Assembly (NCBI GenBank): GCA_030535455.1
Contig: JAUNJY010000038.1
Span: 1-40,881, forward strand
Length of the DNA stretch: 40,881 nucleotides
DNA from: a bacterium
GTDB taxonomy: Bacteria > Bacillota > Clostridia > Lachnospirales > Lachnospiraceae
Reading direction: 5' to 3'
Under the pieces are notes generated by a model. The model saw nothing but the letters and a program-made list of their open reading frames with translations. It was not told the origin of the DNA and made no database searches. The position numbers and the translations under genes were made by a program. Numbering within the stretch: the stretch's first letter is position 1; each line of letters opens with the position of its first letter. This document shows positions 30,015-40,716 of this stretch, piece after piece.

Positions 30015-30042
30015 TTGACATGTATTGTTATAGTGATATACT
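30015..30042 (+). promoter_or_regulatory. Promoter of the fatty-acid synthesis operon
   Basis: A perfect -35 TTGACA (30015-30020), a 16-base spacer and TATACT (30037-30042), preceded by TGA as an extended -10. This should be a strong promoter that needs repression. Start of transcription near 30049 leaves a leader of about 115 bases before fabH. Confidence 0.75.
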
Positions 30043-30054
30043 TTGAGAGTCAAA
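30042..30054. promoter_or_regulatory. FabT-type operator overlapping the promoter
   Basis: The perfect palindrome TTTGA-GAG-TCAAA overlaps the last base of the -10 and the expected start site. It matches the core of the streptococcal FabT box as I recall it (TTTGA-N3-TCAAA). FabT is a MarR-family repressor of fatty-acid genes, and a MarR gene ends this operon. Binding by that protein is inference. Confidence 0.6.
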
Positions 30055-30138
30055 ACATTTTAGATTAAAATAAATTGAATATAAAATAAATTGAAAGTCA
30101 AATAGTTTTAATTTGAAATGTATTGATAGTAAAATCAT
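30043..30138 (+). repeat. Degenerate 16-bp tandem array in the fabH leader
   Basis: Six units start at 30043, 30059, 30075, 30091, 30107 and 30123, exactly 16 bases apart. They share TTgA at the start and AAA at positions 10-12, roughly TTGAnAGTcAAATnAT. Units 1 and 4 (30043, 30091) keep TTGA-N3-TCAA palindromes; unit 6 has TTGATAGTAAAAT. A 14-base exact direct repeat lies at 30066-30079 and 30082-30095. The array fills the space between the promoter and the fabH ribosome site. Confidence 0.6.
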
Positions 30139-30164
30139 TTGGGAAGGTGGAGGTATTTTTAATA

Positions 30165-31088
30165 ATGACAGGAAGAATAGCAGGAACCGGATCTTATATT
30201 CCGAGCCAAGTGTTAAGTAACGAGGATCTGTCAAAGATAGTGGATACCAGCGACCAATGGATAAGGGAGCGTACAGGAGTTTTAAGACGCCATATTGTAA
30301 AGCAGGACACAACGGTCAGTATGGCAGTAAAATCAGCTGAAGCGGCAATTTTGGATGCACATATAAATCCAGAAGAATTGGACATGATCATAGTCAGCAC
30401 CATTTCCTCAAATTTGCTGATGCCATGTACAGCATGTGAAGTGCAAAAGAAAATCGGTGCAGTAAATGCTGCCTGTTTTGATTTAAATGCAGCATGCAGT
30501 GGATTTTTAGTTGCCTATAGCACGGTCTTAGGGTACATAGAGATGGGAATTGTAAAAAAGGCATTGATTATTGGAAGTGAATGTATGTCAAAGCTGTTAG
30601 ACTGGTCTGATCGCTCCACCTGTATTTTGTTTGGGGATGGTGCAGGAGCCGTAGTCATTGAGGCGGCTGATGGAGAAAAGGGCGCAGTAGTGCTACATTC
30701 AGATGGAGAAAAAGGGAATGCCTTGTGTTTAGAAACGCATGGAAAAATTACTATGAATGGACAAGAAGTGTTCCGTTTTGCAGTTTCCAATGTTCCAAAG
30801 GTAATCGAAGAATTATTACATAAGATGGGAAAACAAAGAGAAGAAATCGACGCATACATTTTACATCAGGCAAATCAAAGGATTCTTGATGCAATAGCAA
30901 AGCGTTTAGGAGTGGATAAGAAGTATTTTCCCAGCAATATCAGAGAGTATGCCAATACATCGTCTGCAAGCATTCCAATCTTGCTTGATGAGTTAAAGAA
31001 AAACGGTGATATAGATAAAGGACAGCAGCTGATATTGGCAGGGTTTGGCGGTGGCCTTACATGGGGAGCCGCTTATATTAGAATTTAG
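30165..31088 (+). CDS. fabH: Beta-ketoacyl-ACP synthase III (FabH)
   Basis: Starts fatty-acid synthesis by condensing acetyl-CoA or branched acyl-CoA with malonyl-ACP. The 307 residues carry the Cys-His-Asn triad: Cys111 in LNAACSGF, His234 in LHQANQRI and Asn264 in YANTSSAS. The C-terminal FGGGLTWGAA loop is typical. The frame opens earlier at 30123, inside the repeat array; I choose the ATG at 30165 because AAGGTGGAGG precedes it and MTGRIAGTGSYIP is the normal FabH start. First gene of the operon. Confidence 0.96.
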   Translation: MTGRIAGTGSYIPSQVLSNEDLSKIVDTSDQWIRERTGVLRRHIVKQDTTVSMAVKSAEAAILDAHINPEELDMIIVSTISSNLLMPCTACEVQKKIGAVNAACFDLNAACSGFLVAYSTVLGYIEMGIVKKALIIGSECMSKLLDWSDRSTCILFGDGAGAVVIEAADGEKGAVVLHSDGEKGNALCLETHGKITMNGQEVFRFAVSNVPKVIEELLHKMGKQREEIDAYILHQANQRILDAIAKRLGVDKKYFPSNIREYANTSSASIPILLDELKKNGDIDKGQQLILAGFGGGLTWGAAYIRI

Positions 31089-31116: not shown

Positions 31117-31341
31117 ATGTTAGAAAAATTGAAAAAGATTATTTCAGAGGGATTAGATATTGAAGAAGAAAAGGTAGTGCCAGAGGCAGATTTTAAAAAT
31201 GACCTTGGTGCAGATTCCCTTGATTTGTTTGAACTTGTAATGGCATTTGAAGAAGAGTTTGGAATTGAAATTCCAACGGATGACTTAGAAAAGATGTCTA
31301 CGGTAGGAGAGGTAATGAACTATATCGAGGAACATCTATAA
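31117..31341 (+). CDS. acpP: Acyl carrier protein
   Basis: A 74-residue acidic helical protein that carries growing acyl chains on phosphopantetheine. The attachment site is Ser34 in GADSLDLFELV, followed by FEEEFGIEIP. Size and composition are standard for AcpP. ATG after AAAAGGAGAAG, 28 bases after fabH and just upstream of fabK. Confidence 0.96.
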   Translation: MLEKLKKIISEGLDIEEEKVVPEADFKNDLGADSLDLFELVMAFEEEFGIEIPTDDLEKMSTVGEVMNYIEEHL

Positions 31342-31357
31342 AGGGAAGGTGAAGTCA

Positions 31358-32299
31358 TTGAATAGCAGAATAACGGATTTATTAGGGATTACTTATCCTA
31401 TCATACAAGGTGGAATGGCATGGGTTGCAGAAGCTAATCTGGCAAGTGCGGTGTCTAATGCTGGTGGATTAGGAATTGTAGCTGCAGGGGGTGCCTCAGC
31501 GGAGGTTGTCCGTGGACAGATCATTCGTGCCAAAGAAGCAACGGACAAGCCCTTTGGAGTAAATATAATGCTAATGAATCCTGATGCAGATGCAATTGCT
31601 AAGATGCTGGTAGAAGAAGGCGTCAAGGTAGTTACTACTGGAGCAGGAAGCCCTGAGAAATATATGAAGATGTGGAAGGAAGCAGGAATTAAAGTAATCC
31701 CTGTTATTGCAAGTGTAGCATTGGCAAAGCGTATGGAACGGTGTGGCGCTGATGCGGTAGTAGCAGAAGGCTGTGAAGCAGGCGGCCATATTGGGGAAAG
31801 TACAACCATGACTCTTGTACCACAAGTGGTGGATGCAGTGAAAATACCGGTGATAGCGGCAGGAGGAATTGCAGATGGCCGAGGAATGGCAGCTGCCTGT
31901 ATGTTAGGAGCCAGTGGTATACAGATGGGTACGGCATTTATCGTAACGGATGAATGCGTGGTTCATGAAAATTATAAGCAGTGTATCTTGAAGGCCAAAG
32001 ATATTGATACAAGAGTGACTGGGCGTACCAATGGCCATCCAGTACGAGGCATTCGAAATGAACAGACAAGACAATATTTGAAGCTGGAGGCAGAAGGTGC
32101 TGACTTTATGGAACTAGAGAGACTGACACTTGGAGGACTGCGTCGTGCTGTTGTGGATGGTGATGTAAAGACTGGAAGCGTAATGTCAGGTCAGATTGCA
32201 GGAATGGTGAATGAAACATGTACTTGTAAAGAGTTTATAGAGCGCATGATGAGAGAGTATCAGGAAGTGGTTGAAGGAGGACTTGCTTATGTCAGATAA
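31358..32299 (+). CDS. fabK: Enoyl-ACP reductase II (FabK)
   Basis: An FMN-dependent reductase that completes each elongation cycle; it replaces FabI in this operon. The 313 residues form a TIM barrel with QGGMAWVA near 17-24, GLGIVAAG, the catalytic His144 in EAGGHIGEST, AGGIADGRG and MGTAFIVTDE. The frame includes a GTG at 31349, but that codon is too close to the ribosome site. The TTG at 31358, with AAGGTGA ahead of it, gives the usual MNSRITDLLG start and places the histidine at 144 as in pneumococcal FabK. The end overlaps fabD by 11 bases. Confidence 0.94.
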   Translation: MNSRITDLLGITYPIIQGGMAWVAEANLASAVSNAGGLGIVAAGGASAEVVRGQIIRAKEATDKPFGVNIMLMNPDADAIAKMLVEEGVKVVTTGAGSPEKYMKMWKEAGIKVIPVIASVALAKRMERCGADAVVAEGCEAGGHIGESTTMTLVPQVVDAVKIPVIAAGGIADGRGMAAACMLGASGIQMGTAFIVTDECVVHENYKQCILKAKDIDTRVTGRTNGHPVRGIRNEQTRQYLKLEAEGADFMELERLTLGGLRRAVVDGDVKTGSVMSGQIAGMVNETCTCKEFIERMMREYQEVVEGGLAYVR

Positions 32300-33227
32300 G
32301 ATTGCATTTCTCTATCCAGGACAAGGAGCACAAAAGTCTGGTATGGGAGCGGATTTTTATGAAAGCTTCTCCCTTGCCCGTAAGCTATATGATCAGGCTG
32401 AAAATGCAATTGATTTCGGATTGAAAGAAGTGTGCTTTGAGAAAACAGAGAAGCTAGATGAGACAGAATATACACAGCCAGCCTTGCTTACAACTTCTCT
32501 TGCTATTACCAGAGTAGCAGAAAGCTTTGGTCTTACCCCAGATATCACAGCCGGTCTTAGCCTAGGAGAATATAGCGCGATTGCAGCAGCAGGAGGTCTA
32601 AATGTGCTGGATGCCGTAAGGCTTGTTCGTGCCAGAGGCTGTTATATGCAGAAAGCAGTGCCTGATCACCAAGGGGCAATGGCAGCAATACTGGGAATGG
32701 AAAGTGAGAGAATAGAGCAATTATTAGAGGATAGAACAAATGTTTGGGTTGCTAATTATAACTGTCCAGGCCAAGTGGTAATAACAGGACAGATTGATGC
32801 CGTAAAGCAAGCCATAGAAGTGATGAAACAAGAGGGATGCAGGCGGGCAGTCTTATTAAATGTCAGCGGTCCATTTCACTCTCCGATGATGAAAGAGGCA
32901 GCCAGACAATTAAATGAGAAGTTAGTACATACAGAAATCATGTCCATAACTTGTCCATATATCACCAATGTAAATGCAAAACCCATAACTGAAAAAGAAC
33001 AGATTATAGAGTTACTTACCATGCAGATGACACATCCTGTCCTTTGGGAACAAAGTGTAAGGGAAATGATCAAACAAGGTGTAAATATATTTGTAGAGAT
33101 CGGACCAGGCAAAACATTGAGTAATTTTATAAAGAAAATAGATAAGACAGTGAAGACATACCAAATGGGAACAGTACAGGAAATGGAGCAAGTGATAGGA
33201 GAGCTTATATGTGTAAAAAACAAGTAG
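32289..33227 (+). CDS. fabD: Malonyl-CoA:ACP transacylase (FabD)
   Basis: Moves malonyl from CoA to ACP. The 312 residues contain YPGQGAQ near the start, the catalytic Ser91 in GLSLGEYSA, the substrate arginine segment VRARGCYMQ and His197 in SGPFHSPMM. An alternative upstream codon at 32271 is rejected because GAAGGAGGA lies between it and the ATG at 32289. It overlaps fabK by 11 bases and fabG by 19, consistent with coupled translation. Confidence 0.96.
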   Translation: MSDKIAFLYPGQGAQKSGMGADFYESFSLARKLYDQAENAIDFGLKEVCFEKTEKLDETEYTQPALLTTSLAITRVAESFGLTPDITAGLSLGEYSAIAAAGGLNVLDAVRLVRARGCYMQKAVPDHQGAMAAILGMESERIEQLLEDRTNVWVANYNCPGQVVITGQIDAVKQAIEVMKQEGCRRAVLLNVSGPFHSPMMKEAARQLNEKLVHTEIMSITCPYITNVNAKPITEKEQIIELLTMQMTHPVLWEQSVREMIKQGVNIFVEIGPGKTLSNFIKKIDKTVKTYQMGTVQEMEQVIGELICVKNK

Positions 33228-33949
33228 CGGTGGTAACGGGAGCATCCAGAGGGATTGGAAGAGCAATTGCAATTCAGCTTGCCACTCAGGGCTGTTTTGT
33301 AATCGTCAATTATAATGGCTCTAAAGAGGCGGCGCTTAACACAAAAGAAGAGATTGTATCTCGTGGAGGCGAGGCAGAAGTATATCAATGTGATGTGGCA
33401 GATTATTCTGAAAGTGAACGTTTCTTCAGTGAGATTATAAAAACATATGGAACAATTGACGTGTTAGTCAATAACGCAGGCATTAACAGAGATGGACTGA
33501 TTATAAAAATGAGCGAAGAGGACTTTGATCGTGTGATCGATACAAATATGAAAGGTGCTTTCCATTGTATCCGTTTTGCTTTAAAGGCTATGTTGCGTCA
33601 AAAATCTGGGAGGATCATAAATATCTCATCGGTATCCGGAGTTATGGGAAATGCCGGCCAAGCCAATTATGCGGCATCCAAAGCAGGCATTATAGGCCTT
33701 ACAAAATCCGTAGCCAGAGAAGTGGCATCCCGACATATTACGGTAAATGCAGTTGCACCAGGATTTATTCAGACGGATATGACAGAGAAACTTTCGGATG
33801 CTGTGAAAGAGCGTGTAAAAGCAGGCATACCGTTAGGACAGTTTGGTAAGCCAGAAGACGTAGCAGCAATGGTTGGATTTCTGGCAACGAAAGAAGCGGA
33901 CTATATTACAGGACAGGTAATCTGTGTGGATGGCGGTATGGCAATGTAG
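33209..33949 (+). CDS. fabG: 3-oxoacyl-ACP reductase (FabG)
   Basis: An NADPH-dependent short-chain dehydrogenase that reduces the beta-keto group. The 246 residues have the cofactor loop TGASRGIG at 10-17, NNAG at 88-91 and the catalytic set Asn113, Ser141, Tyr154 and Lys158. The C-terminal TGQVICVDGGMAM is typical of FabG. It begins inside the end of fabD. Confidence 0.96.
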   Translation: MCKKQVAVVTGASRGIGRAIAIQLATQGCFVIVNYNGSKEAALNTKEEIVSRGGEAEVYQCDVADYSESERFFSEIIKTYGTIDVLVNNAGINRDGLIIKMSEEDFDRVIDTNMKGAFHCIRFALKAMLRQKSGRIINISSVSGVMGNAGQANYAASKAGIIGLTKSVAREVASRHITVNAVAPGFIQTDMTEKLSDAVKERVKAGIPLGQFGKPEDVAAMVGFLATKEADYITGQVICVDGGMAM

Positions 33950-33971: not shown

Positions 33972-35216
33972 ATGAGACGACGAGTAGTAGTAACGGGAAT
34001 GGGAGCAGTAACCCCAATTGGGAATACGGTAGACGAATACTGGGAAGGAATTTTACATAATAAAGTCGGAATTGGTCCAATTACAAAGTTTGATACGACA
34101 GAATATAAAGCCACTCTGGCAGCAGAAGTGAAAGGATTTGATGGAAAGAAGCTGCTTGGATTTAAACAGGCAAAGCGTATGGATCTGTTTTCCCAATACG
34201 CAGCTGTTGCTGCAAAAGAAGCATTTATACAATCCGGTATTACAATGGAGAATGAAGATCCTTATAAGGTAGGCATCGCAGTAGGGTCAGGCATTGGGGG
34301 ATTGCATGCAATCGAAACCGAGTATGAAAAGCTGCTAGCAAAAGGGCCTGCGAAAGTGAACCCATTACTTGTACCAATGATGATCACCAATATGGCAGCT
34401 GGAAATATTTCCATCATGCTTGGAGCGAAAGGAAAATGTATTAATGTGGTGACGGCATGTGCAACAGGATGCCACTCTATTGGAGAAGCCTATCGAACCA
34501 TCCAATGTGGGGAGGCCGCAGTGATGCTTGCTGGTGGCACGGAAAGTTCTATAACACCGTTAGGCGTTGCTGGATTTACAAGCCTTACAGCACTCACGGC
34601 AAGCAAGGATCCTTTCCGTGCATCTATTCCATTTGACAAGGAGAGATCTGGATTTGTTATGGGTGAGGGAGCTGGTGTGGTAGTCTTAGAAGAACTAGAA
34701 CATGCCAAAAGCCGAAATGCTACCATTTTTGCTGAGGTCGTAGGTTATGGAGCCACTTCGGATGCATTTCATATCACTTCCCCGGCAGAGGATGGAAGTG
34801 GTGCAGCAATGGCAATGGAAATGGCAATGAACGAAGCTGGAGTTAGTCCGGCACAGATAGACTACATAAATGCGCATGGAACCAGCACACATCATAACGA
34901 TCTGTTTGAAACAAGGGCAATTAAGATGGCAATGAAAGAGTCAGCAAATAATATAAAGATTAATTCAACCAAATCCATGATTGGACATTTGCTTGGCGCA
35001 GCAGGTGCTGTGGAATTTATTACATGTGTAAAAAGTATTACAGACTCCTATATCCATCCTACAGTAGGGACAAAGGAAACAGATATAGAATGTGACTTAG
35101 ATTATGTTTTAGGGGAAGGAGTCCATAAAGAGCTTACCTATGTACTAAATAATTCTCTTGGCTTTGGCGGACATAATGCCAGCCTATTAATTAAAAGATA
35201 TAAGGAGGAGGTGTAG
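33972..35216 (+). CDS. fabF: Beta-ketoacyl-ACP synthase II (FabF)
   Basis: The elongating condensing enzyme. The 414 residues contain Cys163 in VTACATGCHS, His302 in NAHGTSTHHND, Lys334 and His339 in TKSMIGHLLGAAG, and the NNSLGFGGHNA end. It is the only elongating synthase of the operon; no FabB is present. The start is ATG, 22 bases after fabG. Confidence 0.97.
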   Translation: MRRRVVVTGMGAVTPIGNTVDEYWEGILHNKVGIGPITKFDTTEYKATLAAEVKGFDGKKLLGFKQAKRMDLFSQYAAVAAKEAFIQSGITMENEDPYKVGIAVGSGIGGLHAIETEYEKLLAKGPAKVNPLLVPMMITNMAAGNISIMLGAKGKCINVVTACATGCHSIGEAYRTIQCGEAAVMLAGGTESSITPLGVAGFTSLTALTASKDPFRASIPFDKERSGFVMGEGAGVVVLEELEHAKSRNATIFAEVVGYGATSDAFHITSPAEDGSGAAMAMEMAMNEAGVSPAQIDYINAHGTSTHHNDLFETRAIKMAMKESANNIKINSTKSMIGHLLGAAGAVEFITCVKSITDSYIHPTVGTKETDIECDLDYVLGEGVHKELTYVLNNSLGFGGHNASLLIKRYKEEV

Positions 35217-35219
35217 CAT

Positions 35220-35636
35220 ATGGAATATAATCATTTGATCGATCTGATTACTACTGTATCAAAATCCAATTTAAAAGATTTTCGTTATGAAGACGGAGAG
35301 ACCAAAGTCATTATGTCATCCAATGAAAAAGATATGGGAGAAGCAGCTGCAACCTGTGTTTCACAGCAGCAGCCAAAACAAGAGACGCCAGATGTAAAGG
35401 AAGGCAAGATTGTTACATCTCCATTGGTTGGGACCTTTTATCGTACTCCATCAGAGGAAGCAGCAGCTTTTGTGGAAGTGGGAGACTTGGTTAAAAAGGG
35501 ACAGGTACTGGCAATTGTGGAAGCAATGAAGCTGATGAATGAGATTGAAAGTGAGTATGATGGGGAAATTCAAGAAGTTTATCCGGAAAGTGGCACTATG
35601 GTTGAATATGGCCAGCCGTTATTCCGAATCCTATAG
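35220..35636 (+). CDS. accB: Biotin carboxyl carrier protein of acetyl-CoA carboxylase (AccB)
   Basis: Carries the carboxybiotin between the two half-reactions of acetyl-CoA carboxylase. The 138 residues have a short N-terminal helix domain, a Gln/Pro-containing linker (about 45-60) and a lipoyl-type domain with biotin Lys104 in EAMKLMNE. The start lies 3 bases after fabF. Confidence 0.96.
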   Translation: MEYNHLIDLITTVSKSNLKDFRYEDGETKVIMSSNEKDMGEAAATCVSQQQPKQETPDVKEGKIVTSPLVGTFYRTPSEEAAAFVEVGDLVKKGQVLAIVEAMKLMNEIESEYDGEIQEVYPESGTMVEYGQPLFRIL

Positions 35637-35648
35637 GGGGAAAATAAA

Positions 35649-36077
35649 ATGATGGGAATAAAGGAAATTGAAGCGATACTTCCTCATAGACATCCATTTT
35701 TACTGGTGGATGCCATAGAAAGTTACGAACCTGGAAAATCAGCAGTAGGATATAAATGTGTGACGTTTCGAGAAGACTTTTTTGCAGGACATTTTCCGGA
35801 AGAGCCGGTGATGCCCGGAGTCCTGATTATAGAAGCTCTTGCCCAGGTGGGAGCTATAGCAATCTTAAGTGAGGAAGAGAACAAGGGAAAGATCGCGTAT
35901 TTTGGTGGGATTAATAACTGCAAGTTTAGGCGAAAAGTAGTTCCCGGTGACAAGTTACGGTTAGAAACAAAGATTATTCGTAGGAAAGGTCCAGTAGGAA
36001 TTGGAGAGGCAGTTGCAACCGTAGATGGCGAAGTGGCTGTGAAGGCGGAACTTACCTTTATGGTTGGAAAACAGTAA
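35649..36077 (+). CDS. fabZ: 3-hydroxyacyl-ACP dehydratase (FabZ)
   Basis: Removes water from 3-hydroxyacyl-ACP. The 142 residues form a hot-dog fold with [11 protein letters not shown] at 11-21, catalytic His48 in AGHFP and Glu62 in [11 protein letters not shown]. FabZ alone is not expected to isomerise double bonds, and no FabA, FabM or second FabZ-like (FabN) gene is in the operon. Two ATG codons stand in tandem at 35649 and 35652; either could be used. Confidence 0.96.
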
Positions 36078-36088
36078 GGAGAGGGCGT

Positions 36089-37438
36089 ATGATTAGGAAA
36101 GTATTAATAGCCAATCGAGGGGAGATAGCAGTCCGTATCATTCGAGCATGCAGAGAGATGGGCATTGGTACAGTTGCCATATATTCCGAGGCGGACCGAG
36201 AAGCCCTTCATACCCAGCTTGCGGACACGGCAATCTGTATAGGACCGGCACCAGCCATAGACAGTTATTTGGATATGGAGCGTATCATAAGTGCAACGAT
36301 TGCATCAGGAGCAGATGCAATACATCCTGGATTTGGCTTCTTATCGGAGAATGCAAAGTTTGTTCGATTGTGTGAGCAGTGCAATATCACATTTATCGGC
36401 CCTCCCTCTGATGTAATTAGCCGAATGGGAAATAAGGCAGAGGCAAGAAATACAATGGTGGCAGCAGGCGTCAAGGTAATTCCGGGAAGCAAAGAAGAAG
36501 TGTTTGATGTGGAACGTGGGAAAGAACTGGCGAGAGAGATTACCTATCCGATCATGATCAAGGCAGCACTTGGCGGAGGCGGAAAAGGAATGCGGGTTGC
36601 CATGGAGGAAGAACATTTTGCCGATGCATTTCTAACAGCCCAAAAAGAGGCTGCTATAGCATTTGGAGACAGTACCATGTATCTGGAACATTTTATTGAA
36701 AATCCAAGGCATATTGAATTTCAAATACTTGCTGATGCTTATGGCAATACAGTTTATCTAGGAGAGCGAGACTGTACGATTCAGAGAAATCATCAAAAGA
36801 TGATTGAAGAATCTCCTTCCCAGGTTCTTACGGAAGTGCTTAGAAGGAAGATGGGGGCAGAGGCAGTAAAGGCAGCTAAAGCAGCAGGATACGAGAATGC
36901 AGGAACAGTAGAGTTCTTATTAAATCAAGATAATCAGTTTTATTTTATGGAAATGAATACTAGGATACAGGTGGAACATCCGGTCACAGAATGGGTAACT
37001 GGCATTGATTTAATTAAAGAGCAGGTGCGTATTGCGGATAAGAAACCACTCAGTTATCGCCAGGAGGATATCACCATAACAGGACATGCAATTGAATGCA
37101 GGATTAATGCGGAGGAGCCGGAGAAAAACTTTCGTCCATCACCAGGAATGATCACCAATGTGTATTTGCCAGGAGGAAAGGGTGTCCGAGTGGACTCGGC
37201 AATCTATAATGGCTATGAAGTACCATCATACTATGATTCCATGCTTGCAAAGCTGATTGTCCATGCAAAAAATCGAAAAGAGGCAATTACAAAGATGAGA
37301 AGTGCCTTAGGTGAAGTAATCATTGAAGGTGTACATACCAATGTAGATTATTTATATGACCTTATAAATAAGGAAGAGTTCGAAAAAGGTGACTATGATA
37401 TCAATTTTATTGATAGGCTTAGAGGTGATACAGTATGA
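36089..37438 (+). CDS. accC: Biotin carboxylase (AccC)
   Basis: Carboxylates the biotin on AccB with ATP and bicarbonate. The 449 residues show the standard domains: an N-terminal fold with [17 protein letters not shown], an ATP-grasp domain with GGGGKGMR (about 163-170), the [14 protein letters not shown] active-site stretch, and the C-terminal cap with YDSMLAKLI. The stop overlaps the start of accDA by 4 bases (ATGA). Confidence 0.97.
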
Positions 37439-39126
37439 AGCTGACAAATATGTTTAAGAAAAATGAGCAGCTAGAAGGCATAAAACGAGAAGAAGGAATG
37501 CCGGATGTTCCTATCGGCTTAGTAAAGAAATGTAATAAATGTAAGTCAATGGTGTTTGTTAATGAAGTCAAGGAAAACTACTATATTTGCCCAAAGTGCG
37601 GAGGGTATCTAAGGATACATGCTTATCGCCGAGTGGAGATGCTTGCAGACCAAGGCGTATTTCATGAGTGGGACAAAGACGTGGCTGGCAAAGATCCATT
37701 ACAGTTTGAGGGGTATCCGGAAAAATTAGATTCATTACGAGAAAAGACTTCCCTTAAGGAAGCTGTAGTTACAGGGCGTATTCGAATTGAAGAAACTCCT
37801 GTGGCAATTGGCGTGATGGACAATCGTTTCTTGATGGGAAGCATGGGAGAAGCAGTAGGAGAACGAATTACAAGAATGTTTGAGCGGGCTACAATTCGTA
37901 ACCTTCCTGTAATCCTATTCTGTACTTCGGGTGGAGCCAGGATGCAAGAAGGTATTACCTCTCTCATGCAGATGGCAAAGACGTCAGCAGCAATAAAGCG
38001 TCACAGTGATGCCGGAGGACTATTTATCAGCATATTAACGGACCCAACCATGGGCGGGGTGACAGCAAGCTTTGCTATGTTAGGTGACATAATTCTTGCA
38101 GAACCTAAAGCACTTATTGGATTTGCTGGTCCAAGGGTGATTGAACAGACCATCGGCAGCAGATTGCCCAAAGGATTTCAACGCTCTGAGTTTTTATTAG
38201 AGCACGGCTTTATTGATGGCATTGTAGAACGTAAGGAATTAAAACATGTATTAGGACGGCTGCTTTTGGCTCATAGTGGGAAAACGAAGGCAGAGGATAG
38301 TGCAGTAGATCAATTAGAAGAAGTCCTTCCTTTAAAAGAGGTAAAAAAAGATGCTTGGGACAGGGTGGAAATATCAAGGAAAAAAGATCGGCCAGTGGGA
38401 GAGGACTATATTGATAAACTGTTTCCTGAGTTCTATGAGCTTCATGGAGATCGTTGTTACGGTGATGACAAAGCAATCATCGGAGGAATTGCAATGTTTC
38501 ATGGTACACCGGTAACTGTGATTGCTCAGTCCAAAGGCCATACCACTAGTGAAAATATTACACGTAATTTTGGCATGCCATCACCGGAAGGCTATCGAAA
38601 GACATTAAGGCTAATGAAGCAGGCAGAAAAATTCCATCGCCCTATTTTTTTATTTGTAGATACACCGGGAGCTTTTTGTGGTTTGGAGGCAGAAGAACGA
38701 GGGCAAGGTGAGGCAATCGCTAAAAATTTATATGAGCTGTCATCAATGAAAGTACCAATTGTATCGCTGATCATTGGAGAAGGAGGAAGCGGTGGTGCAT
38801 TGGCTATGGCCGTTGCAGATGAGGTATGGATGCTTGAGAATTCAGTTTACTCCATTTTGTCCCCAGAAGGATACGCTTCGATTTTGTGGAAAGATAGCAA
38901 GCTTTGTAAGAAAGCAGCAAGCGTAATGAAGATGACAGCATTTGAGTTGCAAAAACAAGGGGTAATCGAGAAGATTTTGGCTGAACCCGATAAGTACTCT
39001 GTAGAAACCATGCAGCCAGTCATAGAGAAGTTAGACTATGAACTGTATCGGTTTTTAAAAGAACGGGAGGATATCGATGGCGAGACACTTATTAATGCCC
39101 GCTATAATCGGTTTCGTCAGATGTAA
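37435..39126 (+). CDS. Fused acetyl-CoA carboxylase carboxyltransferase, beta plus alpha (AccD-AccA)
   Basis: Transfers the carboxyl group from biotin to acetyl-CoA to give malonyl-CoA. The 563 residues fuse both subunits. The AccD half (about 1-290) has a zinc ribbon with Cys33, 36, 52 and 55 and the GGARMQEG, MGGVTASFA and GFAGPRVIEQT segments. The AccA half (about 303-563) has RPVGEDYID, ELHGDR, GHTTSENITRNFGMPSPEGYRK, DTPGAFCG, GEGGSGGALA and SPEGYASILW. There is no stop or frameshift between them. The long helical start of separate AccA proteins appears shortened into a linker. It starts in the end of accC. Both halves look functional. Confidence 0.94.
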   Translation: MKLTNMFKKNEQLEGIKREEGMPDVPIGLVKKCNKCKSMVFVNEVKENYYICPKCGGYLRIHAYRRVEMLADQGVFHEWDKDVAGKDPLQFEGYPEKLDSLREKTSLKEAVVTGRIRIEETPVAIGVMDNRFLMGSMGEAVGERITRMFERATIRNLPVILFCTSGGARMQEGITSLMQMAKTSAAIKRHSDAGGLFISILTDPTMGGVTASFAMLGDIILAEPKALIGFAGPRVIEQTIGSRLPKGFQRSEFLLEHGFIDGIVERKELKHVLGRLLLAHSGKTKAEDSAVDQLEEVLPLKEVKKDAWDRVEISRKKDRPVGEDYIDKLFPEFYELHGDRCYGDDKAIIGGIAMFHGTPVTVIAQSKGHTTSENITRNFGMPSPEGYRKTLRLMKQAEKFHRPIFLFVDTPGAFCGLEAEERGQGEAIAKNLYELSSMKVPIVSLIIGEGGSGGALAMAVADEVWMLENSVYSILSPEGYASILWKDSKLCKKAASVMKMTAFELQKQGVIEKILAEPDKYSVETMQPVIEKLDYELYRFLKEREDIDGETLINARYNRFRQM

Positions 39127-39140
39127 GTGTGGAGGAAGAT

Positions 39141-40205
39141 ATGAATAATCAACCATTATATATAGGAGAGAAAAAGGCTAAAGTACCAATGATGCAAGGT
39201 AGCATGGGTATTGGAATAAGCCTTGGAGGCCTGGCGGGAGCGGTTGCCAAGGCCGGTGGGGTTGGGATGATATCTACTGCGCAGATTGGATTTCGAGATA
39301 AAGACTTTGAAAGAAATCCCTTTTTGGCTAATCTGAAAGCGATGAGGCAAGAGTTAAAAAAGGCGAGGCAGATTGCGCCTGATGGAATTATTGGATTTAA
39401 CATAATGACGGCACTAACGCACTATAAGGACTATGCTGAGTATGCAAGCAGGCTTGGTGCAGATCTAATTGTGTCAGGAGCAGGTCTTCCGGTTGATCTG
39501 CCACGATATGTAAATGGGACGAAAACAGCAATTGCCCCCATTGTCTCATCAAAGAAATCAGCACATACAATCTTTCATTACTGGCAGAAGAAATTTCACA
39601 GGCTGCCTGACCTTTTGGTGGTGGAAGGGCCACAGGCAGGGGGCCACCTTGGCTTTACAAGAGAGACATTACTTGACTATGAGGAAAATAGCGAACAGTA
39701 TATTGGAGAGATAAAAGAGATATTTGCAGAAGTTAAGTGGTGGGAAGAACAATATAAGAAGAAGATACCTGTTGTTGTGGCAGGAGGGGTGGATACTAAG
39801 GAAAAGGTTAAAACATTGTTTCAACTAGGTGCAGATGGAGTGCAGGTAGGCAGCCGTTTTGTAACAACAGTGGAGTGTGATGCAGCAGAGGCATATAAAC
39901 AGCAATATCTATCAGCGGAGAAAGAGGATATCGTAGTAATCCAGAGTCCGGTTGGAATGCCTGGACGTGCAATTCGTAATACCTGGCTAAGACAGCTGGA
40001 AGAAGGGAAAAAAGATACTATTACCAAGTGTTATCATTGCCTGAAAAAATGTGAGCCAGCAAAAATTCCGTACTGTATTACAAAAGCGCTGATTGCCGCA
40101 GCAAATGGAGATATGGAAAATGGACTGGTATTTTGTGGAGCAAATGCATACAAGTCAAAAAAAATCGAAACAGTGTCAGAAGTAATTGATTCTTTGTTAA
40201 AATAA
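39141..40205 (+). CDS. Nitronate-monooxygenase/FabK-family flavoprotein with C-terminal Cys cluster (FabX-like candidate)
   Basis: A 354-residue FMN-binding TIM-barrel protein related to FabK. Family features are MMQGSMGIGIS near 17-27, GGVGMIS, VEGPQAGGHLGF with the active-site His169, VVAGGVDTKE and GVQVGSRF. Unlike FabK it has inserts and a C-terminal cysteine motif: Cys297, 300, 304 and 312 (CxxCxxxC-x7-C), suited to an iron-sulfur cluster. Helicobacter FabX, also annotated as a 2-nitropropane dioxygenase, uses FMN plus a [4Fe-4S] cluster to make unsaturated fatty acids. Last position in a fatty-acid operon without FabA or FabM fits that role, but this is inference; a second enoyl reductase or a detoxifying oxygenase is possible. 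I choose the ATG at 39141 (GGAGGA upstream) over the GTG at 39129. Confidence 0.8.
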   Translation: MNNQPLYIGEKKAKVPMMQGSMGIGISLGGLAGAVAKAGGVGMISTAQIGFRDKDFERNPFLANLKAMRQELKKARQIAPDGIIGFNIMTALTHYKDYAEYASRLGADLIVSGAGLPVDLPRYVNGTKTAIAPIVSSKKSAHTIFHYWQKKFHRLPDLLVVEGPQAGGHLGFTRETLLDYEENSEQYIGEIKEIFAEVKWWEEQYKKKIPVVVAGGVDTKEKVKTLFQLGADGVQVGSRFVTTVECDAAEAYKQQYLSAEKEDIVVIQSPVGMPGRAIRNTWLRQLEEGKKDTITKCYHCLKKCEPAKIPYCITKALIAAANGDMENGLVFCGANAYKSKKIETVSEVIDSLLK

Positions 40206-40260: not shown

Positions 40261-40716
40261 GTGAATTCATATGACACAATCAATAATACATTGGTAAAAT
40301 TATTTAATGAAATCTTGGACTTGGAAGAGGTTGCATTGATTACGGAAGAATATCAAGATATCACCAGCAATGATATGCATATTATTGAGGCAATCGGATT
40401 AGGCGAAGGCAGTAATATGTCAACAATTGCAAAGAGACTTAATATTACAGTAGGTTCACTTACGACTTCTATGAATAGCTTAGTGAAGAAAGCATATGCT
40501 ATTCGTACACGTAGTGATGAGGATCGAAGGGTAGTGTACATAAAGTTAACCGACAAAGGTGTGAAAGCATATAAACATCATGAAGAATTTCACAATAGAA
40601 TGACAGAAGCGGCTATTCGAAGTCTTGATGAAGAACAGCTGCCGGTGCTGATTAAGACACTGACCGGATTATCTTCATTTTTTCAAGAATTAAAAGAAAA
40701 AGAAAAACATACCTAA
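40261..40716 (+). CDS. MarR-family transcriptional regulator (possible FabT-type)
   Basis: A 151-residue winged-helix protein. N-terminal and C-terminal helices form the dimer, and the DNA-binding part spans about 37-100, with STIAKRLNITVGSLTTSMNSLVKKAY as the recognition helix region and RTRSDEDRRVVYIKLTDKG as the wing. Position at the end of the fatty-acid operon and the FabT-like box before fabH suggest that it represses this operon, perhaps with acyl-ACP as co-repressor as in streptococci; this is inference. The GTG at 40261 follows AAAAGGGGC; the ATG at 40257 is in another frame and stops after five codons. Confidence 0.88.
   Translation: MNSYDTINNTLVKLFNEILDLEEVALITEEYQDITSNDMHIIEAIGLGEGSNMSTIAKRLNITVGSLTTSMNSLVKKAYAIRTRSDEDRRVVYIKLTDKGVKAYKHHEEFHNRMTEAAIRSLDEEQLPVLIKTLTGLSSFFQELKEKEKHT

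Follow-up and report, generated by a model that had tools for sequence, protein, structure and literature searches.

A FabX-class candidate for the double-bond-forming enzyme of anaerobic fatty acid synthesis in a Lachnospiraceae fab operon

Introduction

The proposal of an anaerobic pathway of unsaturated fatty acid synthesis goes back to labelling experiments in a Clostridium. Isabella and Clark, in 2011, reportedly described a conserved protein for anaerobic unsaturated fatty acid synthesis in anaerobes without FabA. We take the protein encoded by NGO1024 of Neisseria gonorrhoeae to be UfaA.

The FabX protein of Helicobacter pylori oxidizes decanoyl-ACP, with O2 as the acceptor, and then isomerizes the product (PMC8626469; this and the other papers given by PMC number are cited from partial texts). 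The gonococcal homologue has been reported to be essential for anaerobic unsaturated fatty acid synthesis (PMC11300592), and NGO1024 is induced anaerobically in gonococci (PMC3032703). Fusobacterium nucleatum has a FabX-like protein, C4N14_08920, in a host that carries FabK as well as FabX (PMC11091888), as does the locus described here.

We analyzed a stretch of 40,881 nucleotides (nts), called the window below, that makes up contig JAUNJY010000038.1 of assembly GCA_030535455.1, from a member of the Lachnospiraceae that we infer to be an anaerobe. An earlier note, made from the letters alone, had proposed that a FabX-like protein encoded at the end of a fatty acid (fab) operon supplies unsaturated fatty acids. 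The results below make it highly probable that this gene, fabX, encodes a FabX-class enzyme with an FMN-binding TIM barrel and a C-terminal [4Fe-4S] cluster, which acts on acyl-ACP and makes cis-3-decenoyl-ACP for FabF and thus for unsaturated fatty acids. Sequence comparison and genomics support the class, the cofactor sites and the fatty acid context; the product, cis-3-decenoyl-ACP, and its chain length are what the analogy with H. pylori FabX would predict.

Results

The fab operon and fabX

The operon is on the forward strand and consists of fabH (30165..31088), acpP (31117..31341), fabK (31349..32299), fabD (32289..33227), fabG (33209..33949), fabF (33972..35216), accB (35220..35636), fabZ (35649..36077), accC (36089..37438), an accDA fusion (37435..39126) and fabX (39141..40205). 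The product of fabK reached the NCBIfam model for the enoyl-ACP reductase (TIGR03151; 474.4 bits, cut-off 453.1), and fabZ was assigned by family search; acpP and the other fab and acc open reading frames (ORFs) were named from their sequences, fabH with no family search. The fabX ORF runs from an ATG at 39141 to a TAA at 40205 and encodes a 354-amino-acid (aa) protein of the FMN/[4Fe-4S] type in the nitronate monooxygenase (NMO) family, an assignment drawn from the ORF, a PDB search, Pfam, an alignment and a tree. Its ATG lies 14 nt past the accDA stop and is immediately preceded by GGAGGA; a GTG at 39129 is an alternative start.

The gene had been placed at the operon's end. It is the last enzyme gene, but a gene for a FabT-like MarR regulator comes after it (40261..40716, forward strand; NF050133, 139.4 bits, below the 200-bit cut-off), a position kept in three related loci (L042, L116 and L117). 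What had been read in this second NMO-family member, namely VEGPQAGGHLGF with His169 and the cysteines 297, 300, 304 and 312, is exact in the sequence, and fabK indeed has no such cysteine site between 31349 and 32299. The FabK histidine given as His144 has to be renumbered: the histidine of its AGGH motif is residue 147 counted from the GTG at 31349, and the discrepancy may reflect the choice of start. A PADLOC search for a defense role of fabX gave 0 matches.

The fabX product is nearest to FabX

A phmmer search of the PDB gave H. pylori FabX as the closest solved protein (216 bits, E = 4e-63, residues 4 to 352), whereas the best FabK scored 74 bits (E = 1e-19). The protein matched PF03060 at 161.9 bits and scored 115.8 bits against the NCBIfam FabK equivalog, short of its cut-off of 453.1. 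In a tree, 43 FabX rows were split from 13 FabK rows by a 100/100 branch, with the window sequence on the FabX side. The first of two structure models (4-row alignment, mean pLDDT 76.6, pTM 0.81) had FabX entries as its top five PDB matches (E from 3.6e-26 to 1.3e-23, TM by query 0.75 to 0.79); FabK matches started at 9.6e-17, below these five. Around the cysteines, pLDDT was below 50 at residues 294 to 303, and the second model (3-row alignment, mean pLDDT 66.7) was worse. Because both models are too poor at the cysteines, we claim that these converge only by homology to solved FabX. The description "FabX-like" therefore holds: the nearest solved relative is FabX, not FabK or a true nitronate monooxygenase.

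Pfam does call the domain NMO, and the gene could encode a detoxifying NMO-family enzyme, such as a true nitronate monooxygenase, that came to lie in the operon by chance. We consider this very improbable. Solved chains named nitronate monooxygenase matched at 3.3e-7 or weaker, a Streptomyces 2-nitropropane dioxygenase at 4.7e-9 and a Thermotoga "putative nitroalkan dioxygenase" at 9e-18, against the 4e-63 of FabX, and such an enzyme would leave the cysteines, the linkage to fab genes and the operator sites described below unexplained.

FabK has the NMO family, FMN and the catalytic His in common with the fabX product, and this shared fold and histidine would suit an auxiliary enoyl-ACP reductase, that is, a second FabK-like enzyme in which the cluster replaces the NAD(P)H domain. 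The finding that overexpression of Fusobacterium FabX partly relieves FabK inhibition (PMC11091888) would fit as well. However, FabK is without the four-cysteine (Cys4) site and the inserts, a dedicated FabK is encoded in the same operon, the window sequence groups with FabX at 100/100, and the part of PMC11091888 cited here argues that FabX cannot replace FabK. We regard a reductase of this kind as improbable.

The window protein aligned over its full length with H. pylori FabX (PDB 7e1q and 9lt5), with which it shares the TIM barrel, FMN residues, catalytic His and four cluster cysteines, at 37% identity over 340 positions. The corresponding identities were 39 to 46% for 31 relatives, made up of the 29 best-scoring matches of the window's order plus two named Clostridium sp. 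records. FabX homologues have been counted in seven phyla at 50% identity (PMC8626469); as the values found here are all under 50%, the clostridial class probably fell outside that count, as far as the partial text tells.

Active-site and cluster residues

The FMN and active-site residues of FabX and the ligand role of its cysteines have been described (PMC8626469). In the alignment, H182, S273, N99, E175 and Q240 of FabX correspond to H169, S269, N87, E162 and Q235 of the window protein, and T243, an FMN residue, is replaced conservatively by Ser238. The codon of the catalytic-type His169 is at 39645..39647. The codons of Cys297 to Cys312 (40029..40076) encode the predicted [4Fe-4S] ligands, spaced CxxCxxxCx7C, compared to CxxxCxxxCx11C in H. 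pylori. Three of the four share aligned columns with C304, C308 and C320, and the first is one residue off C300. Two further cysteines are present, at positions 246 and 332.

The equivalents of N99, E175, H182, Q240 and S273 and the four cysteines were kept in 31/31 relatives, and the His and four cysteines also in all eight named relatives that belong to other groups, among them N. gonorrhoeae. The CxxCxxxCx7C spacing was found in 30 of the 31, the exception (L019) being CxxxCxxxCx7C; across the eight named relatives the gaps ranged from x2 to x5, x3, and from x7 to x12. The cysteines and active-site residues thus match those of FabX, as the earlier note had asked to be checked. The PF03060 score and the four cysteines of the 31 relatives exclude, on sequence grounds, a chance origin of the cysteine site, and the fabX product is predicted to bind a [4Fe-4S] cluster through Cys297, Cys300, Cys304 and Cys312.

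Several positions differ. The window protein has Ser21 and Ser238 at FMN-contact positions where the relatives have Gly (31/31) and Thr (30/31). Cys332 occupies the FMN-contact position of FabX T340 and is a Cys in 24/31 relatives. The ACP contacts T130 and R164 of FabX are V118 and K151 in the window; the Lys is present in 23 of the 31 relatives, and the T130 position is variable.

Other double-bond enzymes in the source genome and its order

The source genome (4.35 Mb in 126 contigs, 93.6% complete and 7.7% contaminated) gave two strong NMO-family matches, FabK (253 bits) and fabX (160 bits); seven others did not exceed about 32 bits. The one PF07977 protein found in it is the FabZ of the operon. 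There was no match to PF00378 (crotonase) at E = 0.001, and therefore no FabM, and none at the same threshold to PF00487, the one desaturase family searched. The fabX product itself matches PF03060 and neither PF07977 nor PF00378. FabA, FabM and FabN, which the earlier note had found absent from the window, are thus absent, as far as sequence tells, from a genome with FabZ as its one PF07977 protein and no PF00378 match; the whole-genome search suggested in that note detected no FabA, FabM or PF00487 desaturase. The sequence of a FabZ does not reveal whether the protein can act as an isomerase (PMC2700279).

We then counted FabX (best E < 1e-60, best eight candidates scored per genome) in 246 genomes of the window's order, the window's own included. 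FabX was found in 112. All 112 had a PF07977 (FabZ-type) protein, and the 58 genomes that lack such a protein had no FabX among the matches listed; these are plain counts, uncorrected for shared ancestry and assembly gaps. A FabX match was absent, among the best eight candidates per genome, from 76 of the 188 genomes with FabZ. It was also absent at E = 1e-50, among the matches listed, from the third comparison genome of the window's genus (G543, 91% complete; four genomes in all). FabX is therefore not universal. A single-protein pattern scan of genome contigs recovered 2 relatives only, because such patterns reach only close kin.

Crotonase matches at E < 1e-20 were absent from 73/112 of the genomes with FabX, which makes an ordinary FabM unlikely there. 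Crotonase matches at this threshold did not separate genomes with FabX (39/112) from those with FabZ and no FabX (29/76), nor did extra PF07977 copies (6 versus 3 genomes). Since neither FabZ copy number nor crotonase separates the two groups, no replacement enzyme was identified for the genomes without FabX.

Gene neighborhood in relatives

We examined 42 FabX loci, consisting of longer stretches from 40 FabX genomes plus the two named records. In eight, fabX was inside or at the end of a fab operon, and in another eight it was divergent beside one; the remaining 26 had no adjoining fab operon in the fetched stretch, some of which ended at contig ends. The order accDA-fabX-fabT of the window was also present in the two genomes of the window's genus that carry FabX. 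The widest families of non-fab neighbors were an ABC-ATPase (8/42 loci) and an ApbE-like protein (5/42), neither at a fixed place. No electron carrier was recognized, by eye and without formal annotation, among neighbor families common to at least three of the 42 loci.

Some loci had peculiarities of their own. The ApbE-like gene, as read from sequence, was two to five genes from fabX (L052, L053, L054, L061 and L064). Clostridium sp. chh4-2 (G246) and MCC353 (G247) each had two FabX genes, one behind accDA and one elsewhere, and another genome (G396) also had two copies. In one contig (G073:C66:20171-21243), fabX was in two adjacent pieces in different frames and is perhaps broken or misassembled.

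A FabT-like operator

Before fabH is TTGACA-16-TATACT (30015..30042, forward strand), which scored best among the sigma-70-like promoter matches in the region. It is a consensus match only, and promoter-like matches were not above chance (26 found versus a shuffle mean of 26.4). Directly behind its −10 element is an exact FabT-like operator, TTTGAGAGTCAAA (30042..30054, forward strand), the one exact copy in the window; a one-mismatch copy is at 30090-30102. The number of one-mismatch copies in the whole window was not above chance either (6 versus a shuffle mean of 4.7). Support for the regulatory claim thus comes from the exact site before fabH and from the following cross-genome control, not from counts within the window. 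Between the exact operator and fabH (30042-30140) there are also degenerate TTGA...AAA copies, possibly an operator array.

A gene was scored positive if exact TTTGANNNTCAAA was present within 100 nt upstream of it, and expectations came from dinucleotide shuffles. The site was found upstream of 12 of 33 standalone fabX genes, from 11 genera (shuffle mean 0.033), and of four of eight divergent fabX genes (shuffle mean 0.003), whose upstream region is common to fabT. It was absent from 21 of the 33 standalone genes, from all 13 in-operon fabX genes and from all 12 genes of the compact class described below. Among 354 other ORFs of the same loci (at least 120 aa, with free upstream DNA; shorter genes were outside this control), nine were positive, all of them fabH or fabT by position. 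Of random 200-nt stretches, 6/3527 had the operator. The standalone genes with the site were those of L051, L059 to L061, L067, L070, L073, L075 to L078 and L088; in L046, L047, L048 and L057, operator sites were upstream of acpP, likewise a fab gene.

Palindromes such as TTTGATTATCAAA were present between fabX and fabT in seven of the eight divergent loci (300 nt shown). They resemble the FabT site of Streptococcus pneumoniae, given as ANTTTGACTGTNAAATT in the part of PMC8406281 cited here. The MarR protein of the window would presumably bind the site at 30042-30054, and expression of fabX would follow the FabT-like control of the fab operon.

A compact Cys4 relative

We searched 299 genomes of the phylum for the long FabX and for a compact relative, about 305 aa long, scoring the best six and seven candidates per genome, respectively. 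Long FabX (E < 1e-60) was found in 56 genomes and the compact class (E < 1e-90) in 94. No genome had both among the matches listed; about 18 would be expected under independence, but the classes follow taxonomy. One genome (G266) matched the compact query at 8e-65 and was left unassigned to a class.

The long-FabX search of the phylum had turned up 25 compact genes, and 12 of these were inspected. All 12 had the four cysteines, spaced CxxCxxxCx4C except in L103, where the spacing is CxxxCxxxCx4C. The insert that FabX has ahead of its active-site His was missing in the six aligned compact rows. In four of the 12, the gene was placed between acpP and fabF, in a fab operon that includes fabK as well; another two were divergent beside a fab operon; examples in or near a fab operon are L100 (7752-8672), L102 to L104, L106 and L107. 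The class fell between FabK and FabX in the tree, where support was weak, and in the PDB it was nearer to FabK (1.8e-51) than to FabX (6.4e-38). It may be a second Cys4 branch that serves unsaturated fatty acid synthesis.

Homologues outside the order

A tblastn search of a plasmid collection that includes some chromosome-sized records as well matched 25 records, of which 20 were listed and eight fetched. The gonococcal gene fetched is presumably NGO1024, being the only match found in that record. Its protein is on the same side of the FabX/FabK split as the window protein, has the His and Cys positions in common with it and is 35% identical to it, with a spacing of Cx5Cx3Cx12C; no fab operon gene matched within its 6.9-kb stretch. 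The window protein is thus of the same NMO lineage as UfaA, in a genome without a detected FabA. The Fusobacterium vincentii homologue keeps the His, the four Cys and most FMN residues and clusters in the tree with H. pylori FabX, outside the clostridial clade.

On plasmid pHG1 of Cupriavidus necator (L094, 3791-4969), a FabX/UfaA-type gene is near an SCP2-domain gene and two U32 peptidase-family genes, one of them annotated for ubiquinone biosynthesis; we take these three to be the UbiT, UbiU and UbiV genes of oxygen-independent quinone synthesis. Also nearby are genes for a FAD:protein FMN transferase, a Crp/Fnr regulator and a hemerythrin-domain protein. These surroundings are likely an anaerobic-growth cluster. 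FabX-class genes on Aulosira and Pseudanabaena plasmids (L090 and L091) are near psbA, as if in a low-oxygen gene set, and the Pseudanabaena gene is flanked by psbA and a heme oxygenase gene. The pHG1 and Pseudanabaena contexts are consistent with a low-oxygen enzyme.

Discussion

The analogy with Helicobacter FabX, on which the earlier note had built, stands for the family and the residues but not for the whole reaction. The H. pylori enzyme, the only class member for which we found a mechanism described, needs O2 (PMC8626469, partial text), and therefore a FabX in an anaerobe cannot simply copy its chemistry. This raises a chemical question. Because FabZ already makes trans-2-decenoyl-ACP, the isomerase half of the reaction alone would suffice in a fermenting anaerobe. 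We think that the most likely oxygen-free mechanism is a net isomerization of trans-2-decenoyl-ACP, a proposal to which we would give about even chances. The fabX product would then act where fatty acid synthesis branches: FabZ would supply trans-2-decenoyl-ACP, His169 and FMN would shift the double bond to cis-3 with no need for a terminal acceptor, the [4Fe-4S] cluster would tune or stabilize the flavin, and FabF would elongate cis-3-decenoyl-ACP to unsaturated fatty acids.

Indirect evidence comes from Fusobacterium, where the MIC of a FabK inhibitor rose on induction of fabX and reached 3.1 μg/mL, versus 0.4 μg/mL with the empty vector (PMC11091888). This rise suggests, indirectly and as far as the partial text goes, that FabX consumes the substrate of FabK and not its product, which favors isomerization over oxidation; an enzyme that oxidized FabK's product should not relieve FabK inhibition, and the result therefore speaks against oxidation.

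Alternatively, the enzyme might run the pathway backward by one step, dehydrogenating decanoyl-ACP to trans-2-decenoyl-ACP and then isomerizing it, with electrons passing from FMN through the [4Fe-4S] cluster to ferredoxin, flavodoxin, electron transfer flavoprotein (ETF) or another acceptor that is not oxygen. H. pylori FabX does the same with O2 (PMC8626469), and the four cysteines, present in every FabX-class sequence inspected, are easier to understand as a conserved cluster if electrons move. The gonococcal homologue has been described with an unknown electron acceptor (PMC11300592), ETF-ubiquinone oxidoreductase is co-induced with NGO1024 in anaerobic gonococci (PMC3032703), and the ApbE-like family within five genes of fabX in 5/42 loci, like the annotated FAD:protein FMN transferase near the pHG1 copy, would also fit. 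Against this, no electron carrier was recognized among the recurrent neighbor families (at least 3/42 loci), the oxidation would be superfluous where FabZ already yields trans-2-decenoyl-ACP, and the Fusobacterium overexpression points the opposite way (PMC11091888). We consider an oxidizing enzyme of this kind unlikely, if worth keeping in mind.

A FabX-class gene, either within a fab operon or preceded by the operator of one, offers a concrete and testable candidate for the double-bond enzyme in the lineages that have it, and the compact sister class may extend this answer to relatives without long FabX. More broadly, the H. pylori enzyme could be a derived exception, and a Cys4 NMO-family protein, either long (FabX) or compact (about 305 aa), could be the enzyme so far missing from the account of anaerobic double-bond formation in many clostridia and their relatives within the phylum. 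We put this idea forward tentatively, judging its chances to be slightly short of even.

A search of the open literature on FabX and on clostridial genes for unsaturated fatty acids, which leaves most subscription journals outside, found no clostridial FabX in titles or the openings of abstracts among the matches listed. FabX, UfaA, their spread among anaerobes and an anaerobic role for the family have already been published; what the present locus and its relatives add to these known systems is a clostridial subclass of FabX together with its regulation, and a compact sister class.
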